This document shows, piece by piece, positions 32,518 through 50,717 of a stretch of DNA of 64,000 nt (position 1 is the stretch's first letter; each line of letters begins with the position of its first letter). The stretch covers positions 49,685 to 113,684 of the forward strand of contig JASAMV010008650.1 in the NCBI GenBank assembly GCA_030248065.1. The letters are read 5' to 3'. The stretch comes from Rhynchonema sp. JSB1_4 (lineage: Eukaryota > Nematoda > Chromadorea > Monhysterida > Xyalidae). The position numbers were made by a program, and so were the translations under genes. A model generated the notes under the pieces. It searched no databases, was not told where the DNA came from, and worked only from the letters and a program-made list of their open reading frames with translations.

Positions 32518-35500
32518 TCAAGCCCAGGGCACTTGTGCAACAGCGATCTCTCCCAAATCAACTCTATTGTTAATGGGCACATCCGCTGCTGTCCAGCTGT
32601 CTGAGGTTTCGTCGTAGATGTAGATAATCTTGTTAGCCTTAGTGAATATTTCGAGAGGTATTGCGCCACCCAGGGCAAGCAATCGCTTGTTATCCACGGA
32701 CAGCATACGGTGGCCGAAAAGTTTGTTGGGCATTGGTGCTATGTCAGACCATTGATCGGATTGGAAATTGTATTTTTCACAATGTGCCATGGCGCTTTCA
32801 TCCTCGTACCACTGCGTGCCACCGCACACCTGAAATACATGGGAACAGGCTTGTACCTAATACTGCAGTACTCTTACATGCATTTGACAATCGTTTGTCT
32901 CGTTCTTGAACGTAGGGTATTGGTGAACGCAAGCTGCGACCTTGCCATGATGTTTCACAGCACGTCCGGGTGTTGGTCATGTCCCGATCGTGACAAGGTG
33001 ATCTGGAAGTAGCCCACCCACCATTAGTGCATTGTTGTGCACTGCCATGGCGTGCACTTGTCTTGGCTTGTTGATGCCAGTCAATTTGCGCCAGCCATGC
33101 GTGAAGTCGAATCGAATCAGTCTGTCAGTGCGTTGTCCGTTACAATCGACCCCAGCCGTCAAGAAGAGAACGTCCTGTAAATGCAACTGTGACCGGGAGG
33201 TGCAATAAAACGATTGGTTTTGTGCAAGTTCAAAAACGTCATTTGATCTGAGCCGAGGCACTATGGAGCCACCCAGCGGTGCATGCCCTGAGGACACGTG
33301 AATTGTGCGGCACGTTTCGACCTATACGTATATTCACGCGGACTGGCGAGTCAGCAGCTCATTGTAAATACGAATGCACCAATAATCATATTCTCAAAAT
33401 AAAAGTAAATTGTCACCTGATACACCGCAGCGGCATGATGAAATAGACACATTCCCCTTGGCAAGTCCTGTTTAGTCCATTCGGCATTGTCGTTGTCAAT
33501 CGATCTGTATTCACATGACCGGGTGCATTCCAGTCGGCTCATGTCGAATCGCAGTAATTCTGGCCAACAGCCACATGCGAACAGTTTGCGTTCGGATGGA
33601 AGATGGGATACGGTGCCTGCATGATGGAAGTGGGGTACTCCTACAGCTAGTCGCGGGTGGTGGTGTAGGGTTCGGCTTATTCCCAGGCTTAGGCTACGAT
33701 TTAGGTTAGTTTAGATGTACGCCCAAGCCGAAAGGAAGGTCCAAGCCTAACACGAGCCTAAACAACCACCCGGGACGAGCTGTGCGGGAGTACATGTTGG
33801 AGTGCGGTATTGGTGGGTTACTGTATGTAACTGCTTATGCGCAGTGCTCACCTTTGTATCTCGGATGCAGCGTGTCGGCTACTCTGCTCCATTTCTTGCC
33901 GTTGTACATTTCCACGCGATTCTTGGCTGCAAACTTGGGAGTTCTTTTGTTGACACTATGGCGCAAACTTAAAAAAACGAACCGATACGTCTTGCGCCGA
34001 GTGCGAAAAGTCGTTTTTCAGCTGCCACCAAAATGGTGGGATTGAAAGTGGGTGCTGGTGTTGTGCTGTCAACTGTCAACCACATTTTTACAAATCGACC
34101 ACTTCGAATGTGCAAACGTTGTACTCGCGGCGCTTGACGTTGCATCAGCAGCAGCGACGACCGTTCTTCTAAATCATTAATGCCGTGCGCCTAAGTTCAG
34201 AACTCGGATACGAGTAAATTCGTGGTAGGCCATCAAGGTCAAGCAAAACATGCCCCCTGAGCACTAACCCAATTCAACTTCTGGTTGTGTCTGTACATCG
34301 CACTTGTCATCCCCACATGATCGTTGTTCAGTCAGTGCCGGGCACGGTGTGCCTCCATTGCGTGCCAGTGCACTCACAGCACGGTCACGTGACTGCACAC
34401 GGGTGGTGCATGAACACACAGACCAGGCTGACCATGGATGCACTTCGCATGGGAATTGACGTTCTGGTTAGTGATTGATAATGTTATTTGGTTGGAAAGT
34501 CGTCGGAACAGTCGCAGAATTACGCCGCCAATGGGCAATGATAACAAGGCAAAACCCTTTGTCAATTTTATTTGCAAGATTCAGATAACACCTACGAGTA
34601 ATGAAACATCACATACTGCATCTGTACAGTCGATTGATGCGCTGCACGTCCTTCTTACTCAGTCCATCTAGAGCGCCGATTTCGTAACCGCCAGTGTACT
34701 TCAGCGGACGCATAGTGTTGTATCTGAAAGTTCATTTTTTCAAAAAGAAAGCAATAAAAAGATAATGATTGGCAACCTTTTGTCAATAGCATGAGCATGC
34801 AGTGAGTAATGCATGATCGAGTCGTAGTCGTACTCCAGTCCGAGATCGGTCACATCCGTTACACCGACTTTCTCGTATTGCATTCGTATATGCTCTTCTT
34901 TCTGTTCAACAATGTTCTTTTAATTGTCATCCTAATCGTTTTGAGCAGTTCAATTAGCAATACTAATTTTCGTATACTTTAATATTGGTCCAATTGACGG
35001 CTACCCAGTGGTCGCGATCTGGCCGCACGTGTTCGTGCCAGAAACCGATGCTGTGCATCAGCTCGTGCACCGTACGCCATTTGCCTGAATGATCAAGGTG
35101 AACCACAACTCAAGTCCTGGTCTGAGTCCTGGTTGCAGTTTGTTCCTCCAACCGTGGTAGTACGAGTCATCATCGATTTTCTGCGGGGGTTCGATGCACG
35201 AAGTGCCCAACAGCAGTTGTTGACGTCGCTCTGGTTGACGACCGATCGGGGACTGACATCTGGAATAAAAAATACGTATATGTATCTCATTTGGATAAAA
35301 AGTGGATCCAATGTGACCAGTTCGATGCACTGTTGGAACATCACCTGTCGTTGTCCCAAATCACAATGTCGGTGCAGTGGGCGTCCGATGGCAGGCATTC
35401 TCGAAATCGAAAGCAAGTCTTCATCTCGATTTCGCTCATCGCCTCGTGAATCAGGCCAACAATTCGGCGCCTTTCGTCACTGACGATGCATTGTGCAAAT

Positions 35501-36385
35501 TATGTGTCTGGCCAAGCGTTTTTGGGGCATCAATTTGTTGCCTCAGCACTGACGATGTTTTGGTGAACAAACAAACCACAAACAAAAGCACATTGCTGTA
35601 ACAAAGAGTTATGCTGTATCTGCAAGCCAAGGACAACCTTCAAGACAATTTCCAGTTTCCAACCCCATACCATACCTCAACACAGAATTCTTGAACGTGA
35701 TCGTGTAGGGCATCGTTCGTTCTGGCCATCGACTTGCCACATCACGTTCGGCCGCACGCTTCATGTTTTGACTCATGAACAGGCTGAAATGTATGCGACA
35801 AGCACGTATATTTACTGTACTTGCATAACAGCTGCATATTCTACACGTTGCATTCAGAATATTCTTGTTGAGGATGGTGTTCGGACACAAAACTCGCCCG
35901 ACTAACCAGAACATGGATTCATCCATTTTATTTTCGCAGTAAGCATGGAAGTTACAAGCCGCAAGGGATAAATCATAATGCTTACTGGTAATATAAGCCG
36001 GTTTTTTAATATTTCTATTAGCTAGGTAATACCGCAGATGCAGACCAGAAGCTCCTACGAACGCGTGCAGTAGAAAAGAAACTTTTAAATCACTCTGTTG
36101 GCACGGTGCCAATGAGTAACAAACGTGTCCCAATCTCACAAGTCGAGCCGCATCGTATCATTCAACGCGTCCTCCGAATCATCCCGCTCTCCACAGATCG
36201 ACATCAAATCGGTCTTTAGCCGATCGATGGTCACATTGTGGGCGAAGAATTCTGCATCGATTTTGAAGTTGCACCTACTGTATTTATACCTGCTGCAGAC
36301 CAAGTGACTCACCAAACTCCGCTTCCACAACGGCCCAACAGAAGATAGAACAGAACAAGATGACGAAAATGGCGTTATTGTCCAT
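32518..36385 (-). CDS. Secreted astacin-TSP1-kelch protein A (catalytic Glu present), 15 exons, 648 aa
   Basis: Exons: 36313-36385, 36140-36251, 35676-35783, 35345-35479, 35153-35259, 34978-35084, 34777-34901, 34617-34723, 34269-34463, 34103-34168, 33983-34054, 33852-33926, 33417-33616, 33022-33174 and 32518-32829. The signal peptide ends near CWAVVEA. A prodomain follows (about 22-85). The astacin domain starts at [11 protein letters not shown], has the zinc site [19 protein letters not shown] (His185, Glu186, His189) and a Met-turn SIMHY, and ends at RLYRC (about 291). The TSP1 domain (292-356) has HPWSAWSVC and later CPAL and SCGDDKC. From about 357 to the end there are kelch-type blades with [33 protein letters not shown] and VCGGTQW. 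Likely an extracellular zinc endopeptidase. Exon 10 and 11 boundaries are the least certain. Confidence 0.86.
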
Positions 36386-49900: not shown

Positions 49901-50717
49901 GCATCGCGTCATGGATCACTCGACGGATTCGCGCCTCCTCCGCTCTGCAATCGCAGATAACTGGTTCATTTTGGGGTCATGTGGTCATCTTATCCAATCT
50001 GCGGTACAGTGTGCTTTTAGGTCGTTTAGTGACCTGCGTCCAAACTCACAGCAACTCATCACGTTCAAATGATATCAAGTATGGCATGGTTGAATTCGGC
50101 CAACGTCGCGCTGTGTCACGAACGGCACGTTTCTCCAATGAAACACCATCGGAACTGGGCAGGGACGAAAACAACCTGCGTGGGGAATAGTTAACTTGCA
50201 GTTTTTAGAAAGCAAAATCGCGTGTACACAATGTCCAGATGCTGGCCACGTCACAAAGAAACTGAATTCCAGAGCCCAGAAGTGAAAGGTTGAGTGACAC
50301 ACGTTTCCAGTGCCATTTGTCCGTCAGTTGGTGACGCACGTGCCGGACTGTCATCAACATGGTCGTCATTCCAGCCCTCACAAATCGACACCAGATCTTC
50401 GGTCAACTGCTCAGCATCCAGGGTGTTCGAGAACACTTCTGCAATTGCTGGTGTGGATGGCAAGCTGATCAACGTCTATGAACTGTGCAGCCTTCCCACA
50501 TACTAAGATGTAAGCTCACATTCATGTCTAAAGTGTAGCCCAGATTATGTACCTTCGGTAACTTCACGAAATTGTTATCACGCCTATTGATATGTTGGCA
50601 AAAGGAGCACTCACCGAAAGTTTGCACCAAACGGATGTCTTCGTCTTGGCTATTGCAAATTGTGACCAGCACTACCAAGATATTCAGGGCAATTTTAGGC
50701 CCCAACCTTGTCCCCAT
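46924..50717 (-). CDS. Secreted astacin-TSP1-kelch protein D (catalytic Glu present), 15 exons, 684 aa
   Basis: Exons: 50615-50717, 50303-50447, 50050-50154, 49810-49944, 49480-49603, 49329-49421, 49136-49249, 48961-49078, 48785-48892, 48586-48698, 48379-48511, 48234-48308, 47980-48170, 47550-47702 and 46924-47268. The total is 2055 nt, all phases consistent. The signal peptide is within the first 24 residues ([13 protein letters not shown]). The prodomain runs to about 100. Astacin from [11 protein letters not shown] (101): CHSHIGLQP, zinc site [19 protein letters not shown] (His206, Glu207, His210), Tyr-containing [10 protein letters not shown] where the usual Met of the Met-turn is Leu, end RLYKC (312). 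TSP1 about 313-386 with [12 protein letters not shown] and CPNL. Kelch blades 387-684: [39 protein letters not shown] and TCGGTPW. Most likely an active extracellular protease, with the changed Met-turn as a caution. Confidence 0.88.

Follow-up and report, generated by a model that had tools for sequence, protein, structure and literature searches.

Four tandem minus-strand genes, A–D, located at 32518..50717 of a 64,000-nucleotide window from the nematode Rhynchonema sp. JSB1_4, each code for a protein in which a kelch propeller follows an astacin domain. From the domain order and its recurrence, the HExxH motif of A and D, the missing catalytic Glu of B and C, and the tract common to these two genes, all read from the sequence, we infer with a probability of about 60% that the cluster is part of a lineage-expanded group of secreted astacin (M12A) zymogens with a C-terminal cysteine-rich kelch propeller, often TSP1-linked, in which the propeller and TSP1 would hold the protease on a matrix substrate and B and C would be non-cutting.

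Gene models and domain architecture

The exon models were built by hand on genomic sequence only, with splice sites picked so that the frames stay open (Table 1). The spliced open frames of A, C, and D comprise 662, 664, and 688 residues, replacing the sizes of 648, 666, and 684 residues given by the first-pass annotation. That annotation had described four tandem minus-strand astacin genes with kelch-like tails, and these were recovered by Pfam in A, C, and D and by our own HMMs in all four. The proposed layout of leader, prosegment, astacin domain, and kelch part was found in every gene, with the leader judged by eye only from a hydrophobic N-terminus in each; a TSP1 domain between the astacin and kelch parts of A and D had been missed. 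The astacin domain is preceded by 79, 115, and 104 residues in A, C, and D, respectively. The FXGD motif, which is the aspartate-switch motif of astacins, was not seen by eye in A–D, and because of this the latency mechanism may differ. In D, a furin-like LEKR precedes AVRDTARRW.

A defect in B had been missed: its exon 10 (end near 39465) has no donor of matching phase for exon 11 (start 39351). As judged from the sequence, gene B is broken or spliced some other way, and the broken junction suggests decay. An intact gene B was rejected, as frame-preserving splices would lose one propeller strand.

The domain search proposed by the first-pass annotation was run with Pfam on models A, C, and D, and both Astacin (143.5, 123.5, and 142.4 bits, respectively; cut-off 22.5) and Kelch_1 (46.4, 49.3, and 32.6 bits; cut-off 20.1) scored above their cut-offs; B was covered by our own HMM only. 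Pfam and our HMMs both placed TSP1 in A and D, and TSP1 was not found in C by Pfam or in B and C by our HMM. Neither CUB nor EGF was found in A, C, or D by Pfam to E 1. A profile search of the PDB matched the astacin part to BMP1 (2e-28) and the propeller to kelch propellers, both designed and natural (1.6e-13 and weaker), the best match being the SAKe6 kelch proteins, which we take to be six-bladed designs. Six kelch repeats per propeller were counted by eye. The propeller is cysteine-rich, and also matches Pfam Beta-prop_ATRN-LZTR1 at 2e-9 to 6e-9 (36-37 bits, under the model cut-off of 50).

Table 1 Coordinates of the astacin-kelch genes and their features in the window
Feature	Position	Strand	Content and basis
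Gene A	32518..36385	-	14 exons, 662 aa; hand exon model and Pfam
Gene A domains (residues)			leader, prosegment, astacin 80-292, TSP1 297-346, kelch propeller about 360-660
A exons 3-8	34617..35783	-	prosegment end and astacin domain
A zinc motif (13 residues)	35029-35067	-	Glu kept; Met-turn SIMHY
A exon 9	34269..34463	-	TSP1 domain; TSP1_spondin 6.4e-13 (reading frame), 2.4e-11 (whole model)
A exons 10-14	32518..34168	-	kelch propeller; Kelch_6 3.2e-13, Kelch_1 2.7e-12
Gene B	37657..41375	-	15 exons; astacin then kelch; TSP1 not found
B zinc motif (13 residues)	40162..40200	-	catalytic Glu to Met; direct reading and scan
Probable conversion tract in B	39887..40223	-	337 bp; most of zinc-motif exon, intron, Met-turn exon
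Gene C	42182..45592	-	14 exons, 664 aa; astacin then kelch; TSP1 not found
C zinc motif (13 residues)	44203..44241	-	catalytic Glu to Met; direct reading and scan
Probable conversion tract in C	43928..44264	-	partner of B 39887-40223
Gene D	46924..50717	-	15 exons, 688 aa
Gene D domains (residues)			leader, prosegment, astacin 105-316, TSP1 325-374, kelch propeller about 380-688
D zinc motif (13 residues)	49380..49418	-	Glu kept; Met-turn SILHY
D exons 9-10	48586..48892	-	TSP1; hand model and Pfam
D exon 10	48586-48698	-	TSP1 end and propeller start
D exons 11-15	46924..48511	-	kelch propeller

Zinc-binding sites and the tract shared by B and C

The HExxHxxGxxH motif is complete in A and D; the Met-turn of D has Leu in place of Met, with the Tyr ligand kept. 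In B and C the motif has one and the same reading, with Met for the catalytic Glu. Glu is kept in 13 of the 15 readable zinc motifs and lost only in these two genes, both of which retain the three zinc-binding His, the Tyr, and an SVMHY turn. The motif Glu acts as general base/acid in astacin catalysis (PMC9848320). With an essential residue lost and the fold and zinc ligands kept, the sequences of B and C fit catalytically dead peptidase homologues; the first-pass annotation had missed this change in two of its four genes.

The altered motif sits inside a 337-bp tract over which B and C are 98.5% identical, intron included, compared with about 44-73% across almost all remaining windows, and dS is 0.051 inside the tract versus 1.1-2.6 in four outside segments. 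The tract is probably the result of gene conversion between the two putative pseudoproteases. In the same four outside segments dN/dS is 0.13-0.21, a rough estimate because most pairs are close to saturation in dS, indicating that the astacin and kelch parts have mostly been under purifying selection over the B-C divergence; this signal may in part be older than the Glu loss. In the astacin tree the B/C stem is long (1.33, versus 0.59 for the end branch of A), which relaxed constraint fits as well as new function does.

Recurrence in the genome

Among 25 sampled loci, partly picked for carrying both domains, 11 have astacin exons followed by kelch exons on the same strand, amounting to 12 genes, some partial. 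The other 14 have kelch exons with no astacin exon within the span (less than 1.6 kb for L003 and L005), and may be kelch-only genes or have long introns that put the astacin exons beyond the span. The astacin-then-kelch order on one strand was seen in 16 genes of the genome, with 0-3 TSP1 domains between; this wider family had gone unnoticed in the first-pass annotation.

Kelch-family matches lie on 70 and astacin matches on 72 of 5747 contigs, the astacin list omitting 7 contigs with matches mostly or wholly in TSP1. Fifteen contigs, the cluster's own included, carry both, against 0.88 expected with contigs counted whatever their size; assuming just 1000 gene-bearing contigs, 5.0 would be expected (P = 5e-5). 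All 15 have at least one astacin match upstream of a kelch match on the same strand, with a spacing of about 6-20 kb on C3579, C1062, C1178, and C2461. The sharing of contigs by astacin and kelch is not chance. The genome (203.9 Mb; 45.0% GC over 268 kb) has 57 matches to PF01484 cuticle collagens and 15 to TTR-52, both nematode families, in line with a nematode source; SL1 gave no match, a result that does not establish its absence.

Discussion

Several known systems resemble the cluster in part. Attractin and MEGF8 are extracellular kelch proteins, and the likeness lies in the below-cut-off Beta-prop_ATRN-LZTR1 score and the cysteine-rich propeller; they are not known to have a protease domain, and they differ further in that no CUB or EGF is reported in A, C, or D. 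The nearest architecture found, LOC120327185 (P0020) of the tunicate Styela clava, combines astacin, TSP1, and then propeller-type FG-GAP repeats, but these are integrin-type and match no kelch family at E 0.01. The cnidarian proteins P0001 of Porites lutea and P0019 of Nematostella vectensis join astacin and TSP1 as A and D do, yet have MAM where A and D have the propeller. Subgroup V of the C. elegans astacins (NAS-33 to NAS-38) are likewise nematode secreted astacins with TSP1, and have EGF and CUB, whereas A, C, and D have a kelch propeller instead; moreover, TSP1 here comes right after the astacin domain, in A and D only.

The first-pass annotation had regarded the astacin-kelch combination as undescribed, and our searches agree. 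Kelch is absent from the 31 entries of the astacin domain list in the Figure 1 legend of a 2023 review (PMC9848320), and word-limited searches of protein records turned up none that combines the two domains. Such a fusion is not announced in the titles or opening abstract lines of papers naming both; in the portions of PMC4460706, PMC2259411, and PMC2563036 consulted, kelch or astacin is named in unrelated places. The titles of the pseudoprotease and beta-propeller literature searched offer no astacin case, and in the consulted portion of a review on pseudopeptidases (PMC11266112) astacins appear a single time, as metzincins. Within these papers and protein records, the family is apparently undescribed.

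The joint between astacin and kelch was read from genomic sequence, and astacin-free kelch genes may exist, as the 14 loci lacking an astacin exon within their span allow; each locus could then be an astacin gene falsely joined to an adjoining gene for a separate secreted kelch protein. We consider this highly improbable and rejected it: the last astacin exon and first kelch exon are 74 bp apart in C, the TSP1 end and propeller start share an exon in D, the splice phases match at the joint, and order and strand are identical in all 16 genes. One gene per locus, as first annotated, is thus the likely arrangement on this sequence evidence.

A weightier alternative, though we think it somewhat unlikely, is that B and C are decaying pseudogenes in which the Glu-to-Met change is neutral damage merely copied by gene conversion. 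The out-of-phase junction of B and the long B/C stem favor it, while C stays open across 14 exons and 664 residues, the zinc ligands and SVMHY turn persist in both genes, and the dN/dS outside the tract is low. That B and C remain active peptidases using another general base, as their surviving zinc-binding residues might allow, is very unlikely, given the catalytic role of the motif Glu (PMC9848320) and that Met cannot serve as a base. As for the propeller, instead of docking substrates it might serve in autoinhibition or oligomerisation; oligomerisation of meprins is driven by non-catalytic domains, and our sequence data fit both alike, but we hold this reading to be the less likely one.

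For the family of secreted, propeller-bearing zymogens that we favor, the prosegment would be removed first, in D perhaps at LEKR, and the protease would then be held on its substrate, probably a glycoprotein of the cuticle or extracellular matrix. TSP1 and the propeller would be the exosites holding that substrate, by analogy with the CUB or MAM/TRAF domains thought to serve as exosites in other astacins; docking, as the first-pass annotation had suggested for the propeller, is plausible. C, and B if expressed, would not be expected to hydrolyse peptide bonds, despite the zinc-binding His and Tyr, and would most likely compete for the same ligands, or scaffold them, without cutting. The portions of PMC2824743 drawn on here give moulting, hatching, and cuticle formation as roles of nematode astacins, and state that cuticle or eggshell is the site of action of the four C. 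elegans astacins that had been characterised by 2010, each a member of subgroup V, which bears TSP1; a cuticle or matrix target is therefore suggested for the A–D family. More speculatively, and with considerable doubt, propeller-guided astacins and dead decoys with matching propellers might form a large secreted system, with gene conversion holding the inactive site uniform among the decoys and with cutters and blockers competing for the same matrix ligands.

Accessory domains are thought to help set what astacins cut. The presence of 16 astacin-kelch genes in one genome suggests that the architecture is important to this lineage, and since active and probably inactive copies adjoin, the idea of dead-protease decoys is directly testable.

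Domain architecture of genes A to D

The exons of A, B, C and D, four tandem genes in the window, were assembled by hand from the minus strand, with splice sites picked to give GT-AG introns and open frames. These models are supported by exon sizes and phases that are largely alike among the paralogues, including a 153-bp kelch exon common to all four genes. The first-pass annotation had proposed secreted astacin proteases joined to a kelch-type propeller. A Pfam scan of the whole models of A, C and D found both Astacin (143.5, 123.5 and 142.4 bits, respectively) and Kelch_1 (46.4, 49.3 and 32.6 bits) in each, so the astacin-then-kelch layout holds in these three; it has to be amended by TSP1_spondin, which was present only in A (44.2 bits) and D (49.3 bits). 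CUB, EGF, MAM and ShK domains were not reported in A, C or D at E 1. In PDB profile searches, the N-terminal portion hit BMP1, meprin and astacin, and the C-terminal portion hit kelch propellers.

Positions of the genes, shared tracts, neighbouring features and related loci
Feature	Position	Strand	Description
Gene A	36385-32518	minus	662 residues, open frame, 13 GT-AG introns, hand model
Gene B	41375-37657	minus	almost exon-for-exon as C, hand model
Gene C	45592-42182	minus	664 residues, open frame, 13 GT-AG introns, hand model
Gene D	50717-46924	minus	688 residues, open frame, 14 GT-AG introns, hand model
Long B/C tract	B 40223-39887; C 44264-43928		98.5% identity, 337 bp, ungapped, 5 differences, intron included
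Shorter B/C stretch	B 40403-40315		90% identity
DBR1 C-terminal domain	51595-52320		upstream of cluster
Large inverted repeat	55961-58913 / 60296-63234		94.2% identity, 2980 aligned bases
Self-complementary stretch	53857-55586		matches own reverse complement, 85.8%
Self-complementary stretch	29790-31451		matches own reverse complement, 76.9%
Tandem array	10312-12950		104-bp unit and compound longer periods
L021 (contig C2399)	3-2580 / 5064-8219		inverted, near-identical astacin-TSP1-kelch genes on one 15.9-kb contig
L019	6215-8874		two TSP1 matches, then kelch exons; no astacin exon detected in 6 kb upstream

Judged from the gene structure, a second promoter and leader could hardly fit between the astacin domain and the next domain, since the intervening intron measures only 153, 60, 74 and 68 bp in A, B, C and D, respectively, and in D TSP1 finishes and the propeller begins within a single exon.

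Recurrence in the genome

The genome searched (204 Mb, 5747 contigs, window included) was treated as nematode because its contigs gave 57 matches to cuticle-collagen N-domains and 15 to the TTR-52 family, both of which we take to be nematode families; a search for SL1 RNA gave no match, a null that does not imply absence. Pfam Astacin gave at least 160 exon-level matches (150 of 368 candidates scored), the propeller of D at least 107 matches at E 0.01, and a propeller reading from contig C150 at least 149 at E 0.001.

We fetched 25 stretches (L001-L025) as a non-random sample, most of them picked for kelch matches; L004, L012 and L014-L017 (6 of the first batch of 20) and L021-L023 were picked because both domains were already listed, and L024 and L025 for astacin matches alone. 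Kelch matches were found in all 25, and L024 and L025 also contain kelch exons, though both stop short of a complete kelch part. Astacin exons lie upstream of kelch on the same strand in 11 stretches, which yield 12 genes because L021 holds two (L021+ and L021-), bringing the astacin-then-kelch genes to 16 with A to D. Some of these are incomplete: besides L024 and L025, L004 shows a single astacin exon and L021+ is truncated where its contig stops. The inverted pair on L021 may reflect a palindrome or an artefact of assembly. TSP1 matches number three in L012, two each in L014, L016 and L022, and one each in L017, L021+, L021-, L023 and A; D has one domain split across two exons, and none was detected in L004, L015, L024, L025, B or C.

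The other 14 stretches had no astacin exon within the span. They comprise L019 and 13 stretches with same-family kelch exons (L001-L003, L005-L011, L013, L018 and L020); these 13 may represent a kelch-only class, long-intron genes or spans cut short. Chance co-occurrence was assessed from the astacin and kelch lists, after seven contigs with matches mostly or wholly in TSP1 were dropped from the former. The lists share 15 contigs, the window's own included, versus 0.88 expected when contigs are counted alike whatever their length; assuming just 1000 usable contigs, P remains at 5e-5. In a phylogeny built from the astacin part, made without L004 and L021+ (too little of the domain) and without the propeller-free astacins of this genome, a branch with weak support (87/67) separates 14 family rows from 8 outgroup rows.

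Around the cluster, each arm of the large inverted repeat contains a frame that opens with [13 protein letters not shown] and, on visual inspection, resembles the beginning of the adjoining DBR1 gene. The two self-complementary stretches are perhaps fold-back elements.

Glutamate loss and a near-identical tract in B and C

One of the 16 genes has no readable zinc motif; of the other 15, 13 read HExxHxxGxxHE. D retains the Glu, although its Met-turn, SILHY, carries Leu in place of Met. B and C share the motif [12 protein letters not shown], in which Met replaces the Glu; PMC9848320 describes this residue as the general base/acid of astacin catalysis. Since three His and the Tyr are retained, the products of B and C would likely bind zinc without hydrolysis.

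Because the long B/C tract takes in both the zinc motif and the exon of the Met-turn, the common Glu loss is most likely a single event that was then copied, probably by gene conversion. Synonymous divergence (dS) is 0.051 within the tract versus 1.1 to 2.6 in four outside segments, and is saturated in the prosegment; identity outside lies mostly at 0.44-0.73 per window, with two short windows at 0.93. B and C may simply be decaying genes, above all B, in which one of 14 junctions (exon 10 to 11, left as read without repair) is without a donor in matching phase; dN/dS between B and C in the outside segments is 0.13 to 0.21.

Relation to known astacins and possible roles

In shared-exact-word searches of proteins, query A1 gave at least 9 matches among 8000 candidates and query A3 gave 16 among 4350; the propeller of D gave none among 787; all such word-based searches would miss divergent relatives. 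None of the 25 protein matches listed combines astacin and kelch by its Pfam domains, which in a word-based search does not imply absence elsewhere. The nearest architecture among them is Styela clava LOC120327185, with astacin, TSP1 and then FG-GAP repeats. In PMC9848320 the word 'kelch' does not occur, and the Figure 1 legend gives 31 astacin domain entries, including the catalytic domain and TSP, with kelch absent. Among published papers that name both astacin and kelch, PMC4460706, PMC2259411 and PMC2563036 use the terms in unrelated contexts.

The sequence itself establishes the order of the domains, its recurrence, the Glu loss and the near-identical tract; beyond this, the propeller may dock substrate, and the target may be cuticle or matrix. 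Some astacins carry exosite domains. These, together with the nematode astacins of subgroup V (C. elegans NAS-33 to NAS-38, with TSP1) as described in PMC2824743, are the comparison behind the proposed roles, by which the product of C, and also that of B if expressed, may block or scaffold.
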